This document shows, one piece after another, positions 2,879-10,966 of a stretch of DNA of 11,060 nt. The notes below the pieces were generated by a model that worked only from the letters and a program-made list of their open reading frames with translations, was not told the origin of the DNA and did not search any database. The DNA is from an uncultured Gammaproteobacteria bacterium. GTDB lineage: Bacteria > Pseudomonadota > Gammaproteobacteria > Pseudomonadales > Azotimanducaceae_A. The stretch is from positions 1 through 11,060 of the forward strand of contig CAJWGQ010000091.1 of the NCBI GenBank assembly GCA_913041025.1, read 5' to 3'. Both the position numbers and the translations under genes were made by a program. Within the stretch, counting starts at the first letter, position 1. The number at the start of each line of letters is the position of its first letter.

Positions 2879-2887
2879 AGCACTCTA
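2876..2887. repeat. Perfect inverted repeat made by the two convergent stop codons
   Basis: TAGAG-CA-CTCTA is a 5-bp perfect inverted repeat. Its outer three bases on each strand are the TAG stop of flgN and the TAG stop of the FlhB-like gene. The stem is too short, GC-poor and without a T-tract, so I do not call it an intrinsic terminator. The two operons therefore have no visible terminator between them. Confidence 0.5.
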
Positions 2888-3214
2888 ATCGTCCCAAGGA
2901 GTCCGCTCAGAGAGCCAATACACCCAAGATAACAACACCGCGACAGAACGGTAAAGCTCCTCGGGTATTTCTTCTTCCAACTGCAAATAAGACAAGGTCT
3001 CCGCCAGAACGGGGTCTTCAGCCACATGAACCCCGTGACTTTGAGCAGCCCGAATAATATCCCAAGCGAGCTCTCCTTGACCTTTAGCTTTAACGACAGG
3101 AGCGTTTACCTTGTCGTACAGTAATGCAACAGCCTTCTTGCCTCCATCACCATACTCGGCACCTTCCCCAAACACAGGGCTCGACTGAGGTTCGTCGTAG
3201 GTTTGATTAGGCAC
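2885..3214 (-). CDS. FlhB C-terminal-domain protein (FlhX/FhlB type, export switch paralogue)
   Basis: The 109-residue product matches only the cytoplasmic C-terminal part of FlhB (YscU/HrcU family). From about residue 26 it reads KKAVALLYD, APVVKAKGQGELAWDIIRAA, GVHVAEDPVLAETL and EEIPEELYRSVAVLLSWVY, each with a direct counterpart in FlhB after its cleavage site. The four membrane helices and the NPTH autocleavage motif are absent, so it resembles the separate FlhB C-terminal fragment left by cleavage. Stand-alone proteins of this kind (Campylobacter FlhX, Bacillus YlqH) are known, and FlhX can substitute for the FlhB C-terminal part. The start is GTG at 3214, overlapping the fliK-like stop by 8 nt, so the two are likely translated together. 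It is the last gene of the operon and meets flgN tail to tail. Confidence 0.85.
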   Translation of the reverse strand: MPNQTYDEPQSSPVFGEGAEYGDGGKKAVALLYDKVNAPVVKAKGQGELAWDIIRAAQSHGVHVAEDPVLAETLSYLQLEEEIPEELYRSVAVLLSWVYWLSERTPWDD

Positions 3215-4286
3215 TGACTTCTAAACCTTTAAACCCAGGCGGGATTGAGGACTCTTTTTGAGCTCGCTGCGTAGGATAAAACTGAATACCAAGCACCGCG
3301 AGGCCCGCTTGTTTCAGAAGATCCGTCAATTTTAACTTATGCTCCACCGCCAAACTAAAAAGCTCTTTATGGGGTATCCAAGCAGTTACCTTGACCTGAT
3401 TCTCTTTATTAAATTCAAGGTTTGCTCCACAGCGAACTTCGTTTTTGACAGGGATTTCAAGGTCAACATACCAATTAGAACGTTCTCCCGCTTTCTGTTC
3501 CTCCTTTTCGTCTTCCGCTTTTTTCCCCAAGCTTAAGAAAACGGGCATTTGATCGGTAAACGGGAGAACCCAAGACAGATTTAAGGTTCGAGAACCTAGC
3601 AAACTCGATAGCGAGTCTAGCTGCCGGGCCTCTAGTTCATCGATTGCTCCCCCAATACCGCTGGCATCCATCTGACGAGACCTCATTAGTCTCTGAATAG
3701 CCAGCAGAATCGACTTCAAGCTAGTTCCTTCGATAGATTGCCCACTCTTAAGCTGGTTTTCTAAGAAAAGACCTGAATTCTCCATCGCGCGCTTTACTTG
3801 CTCCGGTAAAAGCGAATGGCCTGACAAAATCAGTTGGCGTAAAGATTGGCCTTCCTTTGAGTCTGCAAACTGCTCGATCAGTCTGGATAAATTATCGGGA
3901 TTTAATTGCCTGGAAAGGTGAAAACTACCGGTCTGACCCAGTAGTCTATTAAATCGTTGTTGTGGAGCCCCTTGAGCTCGGGGTTTTGTCTGGGTGCTCG
4001 CCTGTCGCTCGGTTAGGGAAAGCACTATTTGACCCCCCACTAGACTAACCAGCAAGCTTACGGCAGTTTGACCAGCCGCAAACCCAGGGGGTAAGGCCAG
4101 ACTTTTTGCTCCAAGAAGCAGCACCGAACCATCCGGCCGATTTGCCACCAAGGCATTAATTACCTGCCCTTCCCTCAAACCTAGCCCTCTCGCCTGCTCT
4201 GGTGCGAGCCTTAGAGCAGAGGTCCCTCCTTCGACATATACAAGGTTGGGTCTCGTTTGCAAATTGACTGACTCAGAAGTCAACAT
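3207..4286 (-). CDS. FliK-like flagellar hook-length control protein
   Basis: FliK measures hook length and, by touching the FlhB C-terminal domain, switches export from hook to filament substrates. The product is 359 residues, short for FliK (often 400-600). Residues 1-95 form a compact beta-rich domain (LRLAPEQARGLGLREGQVINALV, read in parts). A linker rich in Gln, Arg and Pro follows (about 95-115), then a helical region (about 125-230). The C-terminal Flg_hook-type domain covers about 238-340 (WVLPFTDQMPVFLSLG, WYVDLEIPV, LAVLGIQFY). An acidic, Lys-rich loop at 254-270 interrupts it. The ATG follows GAGGG, which abuts the stop of the upstream lipoprotein gene. Since a main fliK usually lies in the fliJ-fliK-fliL cluster, this may be a second copy specialised to act with the FlhB-like protein made from the overlapping gene. 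The family is clear, the exact role inferred. Confidence 0.78.
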   Translation of the reverse strand: MLTSESVNLQTRPNLVYVEGGTSALRLAPEQARGLGLREGQVINALVANRPDGSVLLLGAKSLALPPGFAAGQTAVSLLVSLVGGQIVLSLTERQASTQTKPRAQGAPQQRFNRLLGQTGSFHLSRQLNPDNLSRLIEQFADSKEGQSLRQLILSGHSLLPEQVKRAMENSGLFLENQLKSGQSIEGTSLKSILLAIQRLMRSRQMDASGIGGAIDELEARQLDSLSSLLGSRTLNLSWVLPFTDQMPVFLSLGKKAEDEKEEQKAGERSNWYVDLEIPVKNEVRCGANLEFNKENQVKVTAWIPHKELFSLAVEHKLKLTDLLKQAGLAVLGIQFYPTQRAQKESSIPPGFKGLEVSA

Positions 4287-4297
4287 AAATGAGCCCT

Positions 4298-4921
4298 CTA
4301 GGGATATCTAACCCAGCCTTCGTACGGGTCTTTGGCTGACGACTTGTTGTCGGGCTGGTCCTTAAAAATCACCCTTTTAATGTCCTCCACGCCCGGGATT
4401 CGCATCGTCTTATTCGCATACATCCAATTCGGATTCGATCTTCTGAACACTTTTGGGTTGGATTGAACAAACGCTTTTCTTAGAATATCGCGCTTAAAGG
4501 GATAATTCCCGACCGTTGAACTGATGATCTTATCCAAATAATCGCCACGCTTAACGAGATAGGTTCCATCGCTGTTTGCAGATATGCCTTCATTTGCCTC
4601 CTGCATGGCCTGTTCTAGGTCCTTGACTAAGCGCCTCAAGGCAGAATCTAGCTCGCTTTGTTTGCGTTGATCTTCACTAAGATCCATATCAAAAGGATTT
4701 GAATCTCCTTCTTCAGCTTCGCTTTGTTTTACTTCAATTTCGGTCGTAAGCTGGCCAGTCTCTTCGGCCGACTCTTCTGCTATTTCGCTACGCTCGACGC
4801 CAATTTCTATTGGCAATTGGCTGCACCCGCAGGCAAAAATCAATATCAACAGATACGATAGACTCTTGAACACGCGTCTAGGAGCAACAGGACTTATAAA
4901 TTGCACTCTCTTATTACTCAT
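4298..4921 (-). CDS. LysM-type lipoprotein of the flgP-flgT operon
   Basis: From the ATG at 4921 the product is 207 residues. It begins with a basic segment and a hydrophobic core (SLSYLLILIF) ending ACGCS, a lipoprotein-like signal with Cys31 or Cys33 as the lipidated residue. A strongly acidic, Glu/Ser-rich linker follows (about 40-80, with an imperfect repeat GVERSEIAEE / EVKQSEAEE), then a short helix with LRRLVKDLEQAMQEA. A LysM-like domain spans about 121-176 (YLVKRGDYLDKII, ILRKAFVQSNPKVF, NKTMRIP), close to the form found in FimV/HubP-type proteins. The tail ends EGWVRYP. It probably sits in a membrane with the LysM part on peptidoglycan, perhaps helping to hold the H/T-ring parts. 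The frame is open 28 codons further upstream, but that start would lie inside flgT; the ATG chosen is 7 nt after the flgT stop and preceded by AAAGG. Confidence 0.72.
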   Translation of the reverse strand: MSNKRVQFISPVAPRRVFKSLSYLLILIFACGCSQLPIEIGVERSEIAEESAEETGQLTTEIEVKQSEAEEGDSNPFDMDLSEDQRKQSELDSALRRLVKDLEQAMQEANEGISANSDGTYLVKRGDYLDKIISSTVGNYPFKRDILRKAFVQSNPKVFRRSNPNWMYANKTMRIPGVEDIKRVIFKDQPDNKSSAKDPYEGWVRYP

Positions 4922-4928
4922 TTGCCTT

Positions 4929-6101
4929 TCAGCCTTCAAAAATTCCTGCATGCGACAGAGGAATAGCCAGCATATTATCATAATCAAGCTCGGGCATGCC
5001 TGCATATACTTCTATATGCGCAGTATGCTCATAAACACTTACGATCTCAGCCAGGGAAACCAGACTCAGCCCCTTTTCCAAGCCTTCTAAACTAAGCCGT
5101 TCGCCTTTTGGAGCCAATATAAATTTTTGCCCTTTAAACAGGCCTATGTCTTTTCCCCCAACAATGCTTCCAGCCCCTGAGCGCCCCCCGGCCATGTTCA
5201 AAGAGATTTTTCCGTGACAACGAGCTTGCTTTGAGATCATTGGCATTAGCCAGTCCGACCAATTTTTTATCCGAGAGATCGTGGACTCTGAAAGTTGGGT
5301 CAGCAAAACCTGCGAATTCTGAGATGAAACACTCGAATTAAAACCCTCTGACCATAAAATAGTCCCTTCCGACGAACGAACAGATACGGAGACGTTTAAC
5401 TCGTAAGAGCGAGGTGAGCTCCTCCAAGGGTTAATCGAGTTCTTAAATGCTCGCTTAATCTGATATTTCGATGCGTTAGAACTTATGACCAATTTCAAAT
5501 CACTTGGACCTTGATACGCCCCCGTAAAATAGAGCTGATAACCCGACTTTCCCCGATTTGGCTCATAAATAACCAGGTTCTGGTTTAAAGAATTCTCTGC
5601 GTTTTGTGATTTGATGGCATCCGAAACCACCTTGTTGGCATGGTTTGCCAAATTTATTGCCACTGTATCTGTAGATGTAGACTGTTCGACCTCCAGCAAT
5701 ATTCTCTGTTTGCGCGGAGCTGGAAGCTCACAAGAACCATCTTCGTCTTTTCGCGATCTTAATCTTGATCCAAAGCCTCTGGAAATATTTGCTTCATTAA
5801 CATCATAAATTCGAGAACCCCGATCACCCCTACCATAATCGAAGGTTTGGAAACGCAAATCTTCTAAATCGAGTCGGTTGTAGACTAATAATTCTTCTTC
5901 TATTGACCCAGAACCGGATATCCAGGAGTTAGCTGCCACATAAGCCTTATTATCAAGAGCGTATTCCAAAAGCGAGGACTTTATATTGGCCAGTGACCGC
6001 TCGCTATCGATTGAATCGCCGAAAACGCCTAGGGAATAGCTGAAAAGGCTTGTTAGTACCCATAACAATCCATAAGTCCTAGTTCGAGAACAAAAAAACA
6101 T
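4929..6101 (-). CDS. flgT: Flagellar H-ring protein FlgT
   Basis: FlgT forms the H ring around the LP ring in Vibrio, stabilising the rings and allowing the T ring (MotX/MotY) to assemble. The 390-residue product is close to Vibrio FlgT in length. It has an N-terminal signal peptide (YGLLWVLTSLFSYSLGVFG, about 10-28) and a first domain of about 30-120 with the typical NLV-like core (YALDNKAYVAANSW, YNRLDLEDLRFQTF). A middle alpha/beta domain follows (about 125-290: RILLEVEQS, NLVIYEPNRGKSGYQLYFTG, VSVSVRSSEGTILWSEGF). The C-terminal beta domain (about 300-385: GKDIGLFKGQKFILAP, LVSLAEIVSVYEHTAHIEVY) is the family's most recognisable part. The ATG is 8 nt after the flgP stop with GGTGA upstream; codons 2-3 are TTT in a run of seven T. 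A Cys pair (in SCELPAP and ARCHGK) might form a periplasmic disulfide. Confidence 0.85.
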   Translation of the reverse strand: MFFCSRTRTYGLLWVLTSLFSYSLGVFGDSIDSERSLANIKSSLLEYALDNKAYVAANSWISGSGSIEEELLVYNRLDLEDLRFQTFDYGRGDRGSRIYDVNEANISRGFGSRLRSRKDEDGSCELPAPRKQRILLEVEQSTSTDTVAINLANHANKVVSDAIKSQNAENSLNQNLVIYEPNRGKSGYQLYFTGAYQGPSDLKLVISSNASKYQIKRAFKNSINPWRSSPRSYELNVSVSVRSSEGTILWSEGFNSSVSSQNSQVLLTQLSESTISRIKNWSDWLMPMISKQARCHGKISLNMAGGRSGAGSIVGGKDIGLFKGQKFILAPKGERLSLEGLEKGLSLVSLAEIVSVYEHTAHIEVYAGMPELDYDNMLAIPLSHAGIFEG

Positions 6102-6794: not shown

Positions 6795-6811
6795 TAGGCA
6801 CGATTCATGCA
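6795..6811 (+). promoter_or_regulatory. Sigma-54 (RpoN) promoter for flhA
   Basis: TAGGCACGATTCATGCA has the -24 GG at 6797-6798 and the -12 GC at 6809-6810, separated by 10 nt. It differs from TGGCACG-N4-TTGCA only by A for T at the start of each block. Transcription should begin near 6822. The -12 block contains the ATG at 6807, the furthest upstream start in the flhA frame, so that ATG would not be in the mRNA; the next good start is 6879. RpoN/FleQ control of flhA is established in Pseudomonas and Vibrio. Confidence 0.8.
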
Positions 6812-6878
6812 GAGTCCTAGTGGAAATGTTGGTTTATGCGAAAAACCACCCTATTTAACGACGAATTTAAGAGCAGTA

Positions 6879-9035
6879 ATGGCAGTAGCATCTTTCACAG
6901 TGTCAGATCTTCGACAATTTGCCGGGAGCATATCCTGGTCATCGCTCGCCATGCCAACCGTGGTACTGATCGTACTCGCCATGCTCGTTCTACCAATGCC
7001 CCCAATAATGTTGGATATCTTTTTCACATTCAATATTTTACTTGCACTATTGATCATCATGGTAGGCCTCAACAGCTCAGAACCTCTTGATTTCTCAGCG
7101 TTTCCACCAATTATTTTATGGTCCACTATGCTCAGGTTAGGGTTGAATGTTGCCTCTACTCGCGTTGTGCTTCTCGAAGGGCATCAGGGTGGCGCCTCAG
7201 CAGGCAAAGTTATCGAGGCTTTCGGTGAGGTTGTTGTAGGAGGCAATTATCTCGTCGGATTTATCGTTTTTGCGATCATTATGATCATCAATTTCATTGT
7301 GATCACCAAAGGTGCTGGACGGGTTTCTGAGGTAATCGCTCGCTTTACGCTGGACGCACTGCCGGGCAAACAGATGGCGATAGATGCGGACCTTAACGCA
7401 GGTATTATCGATCAGGACGCAGCTCGAATTCGACGGGCTCAAGTTACTCAAGAATCAGATTTTTTCGGCTCAATGGACGGTGCATCGAAATTCGTTAGAG
7501 GTGATGCGGTTGCTGGCCTGTTGATTTTGCTAATAAATCTCATTGGTGGTTTAACCATTGGCATCATTCAATATGACCTCAGCTTTGAAGATGCAGCCAG
7601 AGTTTACGTATTATTGGCGATTGGAGACGGACTGGTCGCCCAAATTCCAGCCATTATTCTGTCACTTGGCACTGCAGCAATTGTCACGAAAGTCACGACA
7701 TCACAATCGATGCCAGATCAAGCTGCAAGTCAATTAGCTAATCCAACAGCTTTCTACATAGCTGGAGGTATCCTGGTATTTCTCGGCATACTTCCCGGTA
7801 TACCTTGGATCTTTACCATCATCGGGTTGCTCGCACTGGCCCTTGGATACTTTTCTAAAACTTATCAACCAGCCACCCCGGATCCTCTGCTTGGGCCAGA
7901 CATGATCGAAAGTGGAGAAACCTCCTCCCAAGGAGAGGATATTTTGGAATTGGATTGGGACGACGCCGGTCAAGTAGATGTAGTTAGCCTTGAGCTGGGC
8001 TATGGTTTGATCCCGATGGTTGATGCCGATGGGGGAGGTAGATTACTCAATCGCATAAAAGGAATTCGCAAAAAGCTTTCTTCCGAAATGGGCTTTTTGT
8101 TGCCAGCTATAAGGATAAGAGACAATTTAGACAACCCACCTGATACATACAAAATAGTGATTAACGGGTCGACCCGAGGCACTGGACATATACAGGCAGG
8201 TAAAGAGCTGGCAATCAATCCTGGACATGTATTGACAGAAATCGAAGGAATTCCTGGAAAAGATCCAGCTTTTGGGCTGGATGCAGTTTGGATAGACCCC
8301 GCTGATAGCGAGTACGCACAAGCATCGGGTTATACGGTTGTTGATACTGCCACGGTAATGGCAACACACCTAAACAGCGTCATTAAAGATAATGCCGAAG
8401 AACTGATGACTTACGATGTTGCACAAGAGCTTATCAACAAGATAGAGGAAAGCTCACCTAAGCTCATCGAAGATTTTATTCCTGAAAAGTTAGCATTAGG
8501 CACTATCGTTAGAGTCCTACAAAACCTTTTAAAAGAAGGTGTCCCTCTCAGAGATATGCGTACAGTTCTAGAAACACTCGCAGAGGAATGCGATAAAACT
8601 CAAGATGCTGGCGAGCTCTCTTCGTTAGTCCGGCCTAAACTAGGCCGACTCATCCTACAAGAATTGGTAGACGTGGACGAAACTTTAGCGGTAATGACCC
8701 TTGAACCAAGTTTAGAACAACTGTTAAGTGAACTGGTCGTTCGTGCTGAAAGTCTTGATGATATAGCGTTAGAGCCTAATCTGGCAGAAGGCCTATTCAC
8801 CTCAATTAGAGAAAACATGCAGCTAATGGAGCAGGAAGAAACACCACCCGTATTAGTGGTTTCCCCTTTACTTCGCCCATGGCTCGCTAGGCTGTTGAGA
8901 AGAAGTACTCGAGACCTAACTGTTTTGTCCTACACGGAATTACCGGACGATCAATCAATAAGAGTTTCTTCTTCAATTGAGGTCAACCTCAATTCAACAG
9001 AAGAACCCAGACCAGAAGATACAACTGAATCCTAA
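6879..9035 (+). CDS. flhA: Flagellar type III export gate protein FlhA
   Basis: FlhA is the large inner-membrane export gate subunit; its cytoplasmic ring docks chaperone-substrate complexes and uses the proton motive force. From the ATG at 6879 the product is 718 residues, against about 690-700 in most relatives. The N-terminal half holds about eight membrane helices (VVLIVLAMLVLPM, FNILLALLIIMVGL, LVGFIVFAIIMIINFIVI and others). It also holds the FHIPEP-family signature (LRLGLNVASTRVVLLEG) and the near-invariant cytoplasmic loop (GRVSEVIARFTLDALPGK, DADLNAG, MDGASKFVRGDA). A linker leads to the cytoplasmic domain (LELGYGLIPMVD onward, IRDNLDN, GTIVRVLQNLLKEGVPLRDM). The tail is acidic and Thr/Glu-rich. 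The start is chosen because the sigma-54 promoter overlaps the ATG at 6807, and AAGAG precedes 6879. flhB does not lie upstream, unlike the usual fliR-flhB-flhA order; flgP diverges instead. Confidence 0.95.
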   Translation: MAVASFTVSDLRQFAGSISWSSLAMPTVVLIVLAMLVLPMPPIMLDIFFTFNILLALLIIMVGLNSSEPLDFSAFPPIILWSTMLRLGLNVASTRVVLLEGHQGGASAGKVIEAFGEVVVGGNYLVGFIVFAIIMIINFIVITKGAGRVSEVIARFTLDALPGKQMAIDADLNAGIIDQDAARIRRAQVTQESDFFGSMDGASKFVRGDAVAGLLILLINLIGGLTIGIIQYDLSFEDAARVYVLLAIGDGLVAQIPAIILSLGTAAIVTKVTTSQSMPDQAASQLANPTAFYIAGGILVFLGILPGIPWIFTIIGLLALALGYFSKTYQPATPDPLLGPDMIESGETSSQGEDILELDWDDAGQVDVVSLELGYGLIPMVDADGGGRLLNRIKGIRKKLSSEMGFLLPAIRIRDNLDNPPDTYKIVINGSTRGTGHIQAGKELAINPGHVLTEIEGIPGKDPAFGLDAVWIDPADSEYAQASGYTVVDTATVMATHLNSVIKDNAEELMTYDVAQELINKIEESSPKLIEDFIPEKLALGTIVRVLQNLLKEGVPLRDMRTVLETLAEECDKTQDAGELSSLVRPKLGRLILQELVDVDETLAVMTLEPSLEQLLSELVVRAESLDDIALEPNLAEGLFTSIRENMQLMEQEETPPVLVVSPLLRPWLARLLRRSTRDLTVLSYTELPDDQSIRVSSSIEVNLNSTEEPRPEDTTES

Positions 9036-9047
9036 TATAGGGAATAA

Positions 9048-10157
9048 ATGATGGAACTTAAAAGATTCATTGCTGAGAACTCACGAGATGCTCTACAACA
9101 AGTCAAAGAAAACCACGGTGATGATGCGCTAATCATTTCAACAACAAAAGTGGGTAAAAAAACCGAGGTGATATGCGCCGTCGAGGAATCACTAGACGGG
9201 GAAAAGGCAGCGAGCAAAAAGACTAAAGCCGCTACTTCTTCGGATGCTAGCTCCGAAAAATCAGTCGTCAAAAATACAGAAGCTCTTCGAGAAGAGCTTT
9301 CAAGCATCGAATTCTCCGAACAACTAGGGAGAATAGTAAGCAAATCAGAATCGAAGAAGCCATCTAAAACTCCAGACATCAATGAGCTAATGAAAACAAT
9401 ACAGGCTGATCTATCTGAGCTTCGAAACAAAATGGAAAACCAAACAAATACAGTTACGCCTATCAACAAAGCAAGATCCGCACTAAATACCTTCGGGAAG
9501 AGAGAAAAATTTCTAGAAAAACAAGATCAATTGGCCGACTCCATAAGCAAACTGTTAGAAAAACAAATATCTAGTCAGCGGCATTGGAAAGGAATTAATG
9601 TTTTTTATGGCATGCCAGGGTCTGGGAAGACCAGAACAATAGAATCAATAATTTCCGGAATTCGTGATCAGGAAGATTTATCAGATTGCACCCTCATCGA
9701 GTTTAACTCCTTAAAAGGGAGCAATCGCCAGACTTTTGGAAACCTTTCAAAACTAAGTGAACACTTCAATGTCGCTCACTTTCGCGAAAGCGATCCCACT
9801 AATTTGTTGAACAGACTGGAAAAGCTCGACGAATCTAATAGAACTTTCGTTGAGGTCTCCTACGAAGACCTTGAATTAATCAGGCTTCATTATTCAAAAT
9901 TAAACAAATTGGATGTTAATCATTTCCTATGCTTAGCTGCCGATGCTGCGCTCCACAGCCTCCGCAAAATTGTCGATACCTCTCCAGATCTCTTGAAATC
10001 GATAGTAATGACACGCTTGGATCTAATCCCTGAGATAGATGACTTGCTGGCAGCACTGGCAGACCTTTCTGGCTCAATACTGGCTGTATATAGCCACACT
10101 AGTAATGATGATCTAGCTTCTGTAGATTTACTGTCGGAAACGGCTGCAAAAGTCTAA
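9048..10157 (+). CDS. flhF: FlhF homologue (polar flagellum placement), divergent GTPase domain
   Basis: FlhF is an SRP-family GTPase that marks the pole where a flagellum is built. Identity rests on the N-terminal motif (MELKRFIAENSRDAL, DDALIISTTKVGKKTEV), a charged linker (50-135), a C-terminal NG-like region and its place between flhA and flhG. The product is 369 residues, shorter than the usual 430-480. The P-loop is kept (GMPGSGKT, 188-195). The other GTPase motifs are not: where FlhF has DTYRIGA this reads FNSLKGS (219-225), the DTAG position reads EVSY (269-272), TKLDE reads TRLDL (322-326), and the C-terminal GQ-P-D-L motif reads HTSNDDL. Either ATG 9048 or ATG 9051 could be used; 9051 has better spacing (7 nt) from AGGGA at 9039-9043. 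The gene starts 12 nt after flhA. Confidence 0.82.
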   Translation: MMELKRFIAENSRDALQQVKENHGDDALIISTTKVGKKTEVICAVEESLDGEKAASKKTKAATSSDASSEKSVVKNTEALREELSSIEFSEQLGRIVSKSESKKPSKTPDINELMKTIQADLSELRNKMENQTNTVTPINKARSALNTFGKREKFLEKQDQLADSISKLLEKQISSQRHWKGINVFYGMPGSGKTRTIESIISGIRDQEDLSDCTLIEFNSLKGSNRQTFGNLSKLSEHFNVAHFRESDPTNLLNRLEKLDESNRTFVEVSYEDLELIRLHYSKLNKLDVNHFLCLAADAALHSLRKIVDTSPDLLKSIVMTRLDLIPEIDDLLAALADLSGSILAVYSHTSNDDLASVDLLSETAAKV

Positions 10158-10189: not shown

Positions 10190-10966
10190 ATGGAAGCAGA
10201 CACTCAGGAAATGACTGTTATTGGCATAGCTTCTGGAAAAGGAGGCGTAGGCAAATCAACTGTTGCCGTGAACTTAGGTCTTGCGTTCGCCGAGCTCGGG
10301 AGAAAAACACTGCTGCTCGATGCAGATCTAGGTTTAGCTAATGCCCAGATTTTAATGGGTTTGGACGCGCCCTACGATATTGGCGACGTCGTTTCCGGAA
10401 AGAAAAATATAAAAGAGGTTGTAGTGCAAAGTAATGAGAATTTTGCTCTTATTCCCGGTGCATCGGGCAATACTTCTCTCGCAAACATTTCACCAATAAC
10501 CGCCAATAATTTAATAGATAGCGTCAAATCAGAACTCAATACGGTCGAGATTCTAATAATCGACTGCGCGGCGGGCTTAGCCGAATCGAACTTAGCTTTT
10601 CTCGATTGCTGCAGCATAAAGATCATCGTCGTGCAAGATGAACCAGCTTCGATAGCGGACTGTTATGGGGTAATAAAGATTGAGAACAAAAAAGACCAAA
10701 TGGACAACATTTTTATACTACCAAATCGAGTCAAGAGCGAAGCTGAAGGCAAAACACTATTTGATAAGCTCAATCAGGTCTGCATGAAGTTTCTTGAACA
10801 GCCGGTTAATTACGTCTCATCAGTTTTAGACAGTCAATTAATAACCGGCTTAAATAGGAAAAGGGAAAGTCTTTTTCCAAATCATGCTAAAACGCCCCCG
10901 GCACACAATTTTCTGGCGTTGGCAACAAAGATATCTGAGCTTAAATCTATAAAACCGGTATTATAG
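10190..10966 (+). CDS. flhG: FlhG/FleN, MinD-like ATPase controlling flagellar number
   Basis: FlhG (FleN) is a ParA/MinD-type ATPase that limits flagellar number by restraining FleQ/FlrA and acting on FlhF. The 258-residue product has the deviant Walker A (SGKGGVGKST, residues 15-24), the switch I-type motif LLLDADLGLANAQILMG (42 on), and Walker B/switch II as LIIDCAAGL (D125). The QDEPASIADCYGVIKI segment is typical of FleN. It is slightly shorter than the usual 270-300. The N-terminus (MEADTQEMTVIGIAS) lacks the DQAxxLR-type motif that stimulates FlhF GTPase activity in Bacillus, Shewanella and Vibrio proteins, and reading upstream in frame does not recover it. The C-terminus ends ISELKSIKPVL; a clear membrane-targeting helix is not evident. 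The gap to flhF is 32 nt and the ribosome site (GAGAAG) is weak. Confidence 0.92.
   Translation: MEADTQEMTVIGIASGKGGVGKSTVAVNLGLAFAELGRKTLLLDADLGLANAQILMGLDAPYDIGDVVSGKKNIKEVVVQSNENFALIPGASGNTSLANISPITANNLIDSVKSELNTVEILIIDCAAGLAESNLAFLDCCSIKIIVVQDEPASIADCYGVIKIENKKDQMDNIFILPNRVKSEAEGKTLFDKLNQVCMKFLEQPVNYVSSVLDSQLITGLNRKRESLFPNHAKTPPAHNFLALATKISELKSIKPVL

Follow-up and report, generated by a model that had tools for sequence, protein, structure and literature searches.

In the portions of the literature cited here, FlhF is described as a bridge: its N-terminus binds FliG and its NG domain binds HubP/FimV, the latter independently of nucleotide, whether GDP or GTP (PMC11236974). In P. aeruginosa the GTPase domain was found to direct FlhF to the pole, and for FlhF localization in P. 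aeruginosa and V. alginolyticus GTP binding was reported to be needed but hydrolysis was not (PMC12713375). In FlhG, a DQAxxLR helix triggers hydrolysis and a C-terminal helix serves membrane cycling (PMC12826062). FipA was reported only in genomes that have both FlhF and FlhG, and the recruitment of FlhF needs FipA (PMC11620751). We analyzed a window of 11,060 nucleotides (the whole stretch of DNA presented above) and the clade of marine Gammaproteobacteria to which its flhF gene belongs. The clade has lost or altered every one of the handles named above.

The flhF locus

The window is a flagellar locus with the gene order flhA-flhF-flhG, the last encoding a MinD-like protein (Table 1). The initial annotation had read the middle gene as an flhF with an intact reading frame and a decayed GTPase domain. 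Its frame is indeed open throughout, and gene position, the match of the N-terminal domain, the predicted fold and profile homology agree on FlhF. The NCBIfam model of FlhF, TIGR03499, matched residues 2-198 with 64 bits, far below its cut-off of 174. No Pfam SRP54 match was found in the protein, and the only hits, of AAA type, were all sub-threshold. We filed the protein as a divergent FlhF orthologue by homology and gene place, not as a TIGR03499 equivalog. A pseudogene or a sequencing error was rejected because the frames are intact in the relatives and dN/dS is low.

Judging from the match to 9en1, a solved N-terminal domain of FlhF (3.8e-5 with phmmer; 2.6e-8 with the profile), an N-terminal domain of the FliG-interacting type is present. 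It is the most conserved part of FlhF (dN/dS 0-0.092). In an AF2 model, which was confident overall and had pLDDT below 50 at residues 224-227 of the G2 loop, the NG-type (SRP-GTPase) fold was predicted to be kept and to be closest to FlhF. The modeled protein ends soon after the G5 region, without the C-terminal helix. Gene place, N-terminal domain, SRP-GTPase fold and P-loop are thus common to the window protein and the FlhF of S. putrefaciens (8r9r) and B. subtilis (2px0/2px3). Unlike them, it lacks the DTxR Asp and Arg, the DTAG Gly, the Lys and Glu of TKxDE, the G5 Gly and the C-terminal helix, and its N domain is shortened.

Table 1. Features of the window around flhF (positions in the window; residues are those of FlhF)
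Feature	Position	Strand	Evidence or remark
flhA, upstream neighbor of flhF	6807..9035	+	TIGR01398, 809 bits (cut-off 772)
flhF orthologue, catalytic motifs lost	9048..10157	+	369 aa; TIGR03499, 64 bits; profile homology to FlhF
N-terminal domain (residues 2-46), equivalent to the part of FlhF that interacts with FliG	9051..9185	+	match to 9en1; conservation
Shortened equivalent of the N domain, consisting of two long helices (residues 111-135, 138-169)	9378..9554	+	AF2 model
P-loop GMPGSGKT (G1, residues 188-195), kept	9609..9632	+	motif counts in the clade
G2 region EFNSLKGSNRQT in the place of DTYR, variable loop without catalytic Asp or Arg	9699..9734	+	alignments
G3 region EVSY (residues 269-272) in the place of DTAG	9852..9863	+	acid is Glu269; Gly gone
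LCLAAD (residues 294-299) with clade-specific C295 and D299	9927..9944	+	103/103 and 102/103
G4 region TRLDL (residues 322-326) in the place of TKLDE	10011..10025	+	alignments
G5 region YSHTSNDDL (residues 348-356) in the place of the DGQ-type loop	10089..10115	+	Gly 0/103; model
flhG (MinD-like ATPase)	10190..10966	+	ATPase motifs present; DQAxxLR and C-terminal membrane-targeting end absent

Several other genes of the window drew attention. A LysM-type lipoprotein-like gene inside the flagellar cluster (4298-5005, minus strand) had no Pfam match; it may encode a polar or flagellar factor of the periplasm. Weak FimV_core matches were seen at the flagellar locus of many clade genomes and of one further genome, G052. 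A stand-alone 109-aa protein (2885-3214, minus strand) matched the C-terminal end of FlhB only (PF01312 positions 262-335), and the adjoining 359-aa gene (3207-4286) is FliK-like by place and size only.

Relatives and the clade

A protein database search found at least 21 relatives with 47-99% identity, two of them partial and none with a Pfam domain. With the profile of the wider family (E <= 1e-10), at least 121 proteins were found, and among the matches listed the more distant ones had SRP54 domains. The protein searches scored the best 7996 and 7998 candidates by shared words. A scan of species genomes gave nine loci. One of them (L001, in the Gammaproteobacteria MAG RS465) has 73% identity; the other eight are more distant and include L007 of the K189A clade. 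Among 58 relatives of genome G001, the family profile matched in 34, which were sorted into 24 clade members, the intermediate G052 and nine genomes of SRP54 type. Four of the clade members (G009, G018, G019 and G025) are represented by partial genes only; in G009 and G019 no G-domain motifs were seen, and these two are members by kinship only. With an SRP54-type FlhF as the query (E <= 1e-30), 14 SRP54-type genomes were found.

The clade alignment had 103 rows including the window. They represent one clade with many near-copies, so the rows are not independent in the counts below; some contain X, and that of G034 ends before G4. The partial sequences P0014, P0022, P0085, P0086, P0087, P0110, G009, G018, G019 and G025 were kept outside the 103. 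Of the named relatives, MAG RS465 is the closest, with an FlhA that is 93.5% identical over residues 249-742. The K189A clade, in which NCBI places isolate HTCC2089, is more distant. The clade likely has its putative counterpart in the GTDB families HTCC2089/Pseudohongiellaceae, which are named in part of PMC8371827.

A second, active FlhF was considered. In each of nine genomes, one frame matched the FlhF model from position 1, and the other matches to the model started at position 13 or later; therefore, no second FlhF was seen in these genomes.

Active-site motifs

The motif strings quoted in the initial annotation are all present in the translation, FNSLKGS being at residues 219-225, and their placement by eye was matched by three alignments. 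In the MAFFT alignment with the FlhF of relatives, the motif places were as read by eye. The profile-profile comparison with 10 SRP54-type FlhF (probability 99.7, E = 7.4e-26) paired FVEVSYEDL with LVDTAGLAR and TRLDL with TKLDE. The third alignment compared the family profile with the solved FlhF 8r9r (E = 2.5e-12). A string search of the whole window FlhF found no DxxR and no DTAG-like string; the DTSP at residues 309-312 is not shared across the family. With these alignments and the string search, we rejected the possibility that the catalytic motifs lie elsewhere in the protein. It was also rejected that the loss is special to the window: the same losses are common to the at least 21 database relatives and run through the 103 aligned members of the clade.

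The P-loop Lys is found in 103/103 rows and its Thr/Ser in 102/103. DTxR had been described as lost, and its Asp and Arg columns are indeed both 0/103, but the region is a gapped loop, free in length and sequence, and two of the 103 rows (G005 and P0079, one species) contain the string DEAR, with the spacing D..R, which is absent from their close relatives. DTAG had likewise been described as lost. This stands for the Gly, which is gone throughout the clade (0/103), but not for the acid, which is present in 103/103 (Asp in 82; Glu in 21, including the lineage of the window). At G4, the TKxD guanine-recognition motif, TRLDL of the window retains the Thr and the Asp and has Arg for Lys; in the clade, Thr is found in 101/103, Arg for Lys in 101/103, Asp in 97/103 and Leu for Glu in 101/103. 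The G5 Gly is missing in all 103. Comparatively, among 15 SRP54-type genome rows (G052 included), the DTxR Asp is present in 13, the Arg in 13, the G3 Gly in 14, the G4 Lys in 13 and the G5 Gly in 13. As far as alignments can tell, of the motifs of an active SRP-family GTPase the P-loop GxxGxGK(T/S) is present, and DTxR and DTAG are absent.

Four pocket residues are near-invariant only in the clade: C295 (103/103), D299 (102/103), R323 (101/103) and L326 (101/103). SRP54-type FlhF have V/L, T/N, K and E in these columns. Together with the kept P-loop Lys, G3 acid and G4 Asp, they point to a pocket remodeled under constraint. Thus, the description of the G domain as decayed was not supported.

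Evolutionary origin and selection

Both trees indicated that the loss of the catalytic motifs had one origin. In the FlhA tree (37 rows, 351 columns), the 22 rows with degenerate FlhF cluster together (100/99), with G052 as the sister lineage (100/99). In the FlhF tree (70 rows), the clade and a shorter form of 305-306 aa form one group (100/98), and G052 groups with a set of metagenome proteins (100/99), jointly the nearest relatives of the clade (92/78). As long branches are present, we regard the FlhA tree as the better witness.

Among the metagenome proteins, P0094-P0109 are closest to G052. All 16 of them have the DTxR Arg, the G3 Asp and, at G4, Lys, Asp and Glu, with the DTxR Asp shifted one column later (xDxR). 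These intermediates and G052 resemble the clade in a MELKR-type start and, in part, an altered G5. Unlike the clade, G052 has ADQK, DTSG and TKLDE, and the membrane end of its FlhG is present. Because the intermediates hold the Arg, the G3 Asp and a full G4 while the Asp is displaced, the loss of DTxR, DTAG and TKxDE may be read as stepwise.

The initial annotation had supposed flhF to be under selection. Selection is purifying: the dN/dS of the G domain was 0.055-0.241 in 14 of 16 pairs, the other two being saturated. Between the window and G001, it was 0.241 in the G domain and 0.092 in the N-terminal domain. The mean identity ratio of the G domain to the N-terminal domain was 0.80 in 12 SRP54-type proteins, 0.72 in 10 intermediates and 0.45 in 18 clade members. 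The low ratio, with dN/dS below 1, indicates that the constraint on the G domain is weaker but clearly not gone.

Two further groups deserve mention. In the shorter form of the same clade (P0088-P0093), the G2 loop has nearly vanished and G3 has Glu. Ten proteins of 386 aa (P0112-P0121) have lost DTxR and DTAG with TKxDE intact; they have a MESEVVNW-type G2 and IVDVSLI at G3, and their branch in the FlhF tree is very long (3.96). They are possibly an independent loss of catalysis. No match to this group was found in 369 genomes of the class, in a search run without a positive control.

Partner proteins

The loss of FlhF motifs is clade-wide, and FlhG, FipA, FimV and FleQ change alongside. An LEFFVE-type membrane-targeting end was found in none of 19 clade copies of FlhG (18 plus G021). 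It is present in the nine SRP54-type copies seen whole, in G057, G013 and G017, and in G052 as LQFFVERML. DQAxxLR was found in none of the 29 FlhG checked, two of which are cut short. This agrees with its published absence from the FleN of pseudomonads, as described in part of PMC12713375.

FipA (PF10975) was found in 12/58 genomes, 10 of them among the 14 with SRP54-type FlhF, and in neither the 24 clade genomes nor G052. SRP54-type FlhF occurs without FipA in G041, G046, G054 and G056, and FipA occurs without an FlhF match in G047 and G048. The N-terminal domain of FleQ (PF06490) had some match in 26/58 genomes and one of at least 45 bits in 13/58, 11 of these among the 14 SRP54-type genomes, three of which lack a strong match. 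None of the 24 clade genomes had a strong match; sub-threshold ones were seen only in G021 and G034, and none in G052. For each of the two proteins a single Pfam model was applied to draft genomes, so very divergent forms could be missed.

FimV (TIGR03505) frames of 324-623 aa, the 324-aa one near a contig end, were found in 21/24 clade genomes; G021, G025 and G033 gave no match above the threshold. The length is 777-1124 aa in 13/14 SRP54-type genomes (G050 had a weak match only) and 596 aa in G052. Short frames were also seen in four genomes without an FlhF match (G020, G029, G036 and G040). After the membrane helix of FimV there are ~115-245 residues in six clade proteins, ~440-475 in three SRP54-type ones and ~155 in G052, with lengths reckoned from the first Met of the frame. 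The clade proteins still have a conserved stretch at the C-terminus. FliG was found in 46/58 genomes and 19/24 clade genomes, being missing from the draft assemblies G001, G002, G003, G005 and G019. The genome set for FimV, FipA, FliG and FleQ excludes G007. One or two branches, or evolutionary events, account for all the partner changes, which therefore prove neither coupling nor cause.

A soluble protein of ~180-190 aa follows fliA in G001, G038 and G052 (L001:7537-8109, L110:7612-8226, L105 minus strand). The gene that comes next in G052 encodes 230 aa with a single membrane helix, and a FipA counterpart might be sought there.

Discussion

Considering the homology, the motif losses, the single clade, the purifying selection and the changed partners, we think it probable that the window FlhF is the orthologue of one marine clade of Gammaproteobacteria and acts as a pseudo-GTPase scaffold. 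Its N-terminal domain would recruit FliG, as family knowledge and conservation suggest, and its G domain, with the predicted SRP-GTPase fold and a phosphate-binding P-loop, may have a nucleotide as its structural cofactor. No exception to the P-loop Lys or to the G3 acid was seen, so a nucleotide is perhaps retained as a structural element. Without the DTAG Gly or the Asp and Arg of DTxR, and with a variable loop in place of the one that bears DTxR, the protein would not hydrolyze GTP by the composite-site mechanism of FlhF, and a GTP-driven homodimer would not form. FlhG, lacking the activator motif and the membrane end, would be unable to reset FlhF through triggered hydrolysis. Placement would then rest on FlhF as a tether between a polar landmark and the earliest parts of the flagellum. 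The term placement scaffold, proposed in the initial annotation, fits the described bridging of FliG and HubP/FimV with nucleotide-independent HubP binding (PMC11236974). The reported hydrolysis-independent localization of FlhF (PMC12713375) was also counted in its favor. Several observations count against it. The kept G3 acid, P-loop and most of G4 make some nucleotide chemistry possible, the pocket residues that became fixed in the clade hint at more than passive scaffolding, and two rows of one species have the D..R-spaced DEAR in the G2 loop. The short FimV of the clade also raises doubt whether the known FimV contact exists there.

It might be argued that the pocket was rebuilt rather than abandoned and that nucleotide or another ligand is turned over or sensed via the P-loop Lys, the G3 acid, C295, D299 and R323. 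The invariance of the first two and the near-fixation of C295, D299, R323 and L326, unlike in SRP54-type FlhF, are what would be expected of it. However, the G2 loop, the catalytic seat of SRP GTPases, is free to vary in both sequence and length, and the G4 Asp is lost in G028, P0023 and P0026 (Gly) and in P0080 (Asn). We regard this explanation as unlikely.

Alternatively, only the FliG-binding N-terminal part might matter while the G domain drifts as a relaxed remnant. The fall of the identity ratio from SRP54-type proteins through intermediates to the clade, the loss of the G4 motif in G027 (SITE) and the existence of the 305-306 aa form are in line with this, but a G-domain dN/dS far below 1, intact frames and fixed pocket residues among the 103 and a confident predicted fold make it quite improbable. 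That the protein is not FlhF, or is an assembly artefact, is hardly credible: the absent SRP54 match, the sub-threshold AAA-type hits and the FlhF model score below cut-off are outweighed by the flhA and flhG flanks, the N-terminal domain match, the fold, the profile homology and relatives from separate assemblies, which already contradict it.

Going beyond the scaffold, we tentatively entertain, as a possibility on the unlikely side, that an SRP-family GTPase was converted once and stepwise into a non-hydrolyzing protein with a rebuilt pocket (C295, D299, R323 and L326 around the kept P-loop), which positions flagella without an NTP-driven FlhF/FlhG switch. Its cue would be another ligand or partner. 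Lost alongside would have been FipA, FleQ, most of the cytoplasmic length of FimV and the membrane end of FlhG.

In the open literature, with preprints and most subscription papers outside the search, we came across no work that describes FlhF or an SRP GTPase as a pseudo-GTPase. Septins are eukaryotic and belong to a different class of GTPases. Some are described in part of PMC10731463 as having degenerated into pseudo-GTPases and, as proposed for the clade FlhF, belong to a GTPase family that lost catalysis and retained the domain for assembly. Active partners exist for septins, whereas no second FlhF was seen in the nine genomes considered above.

The role of GTP hydrolysis by FlhF is not settled, and a clade without the hydrolysis motifs is a natural test of it. 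With its sister group, which keeps most motifs, the clade offers a comparison for testing which step depends on hydrolysis. Our results suggest that the FlhF/FlhG switch can come apart in evolution while both genes persist. Judging from the sequences, this clade of marine bacteria appears to retain FlhF as a conserved scaffold without the GTP-hydrolyzing machinery.
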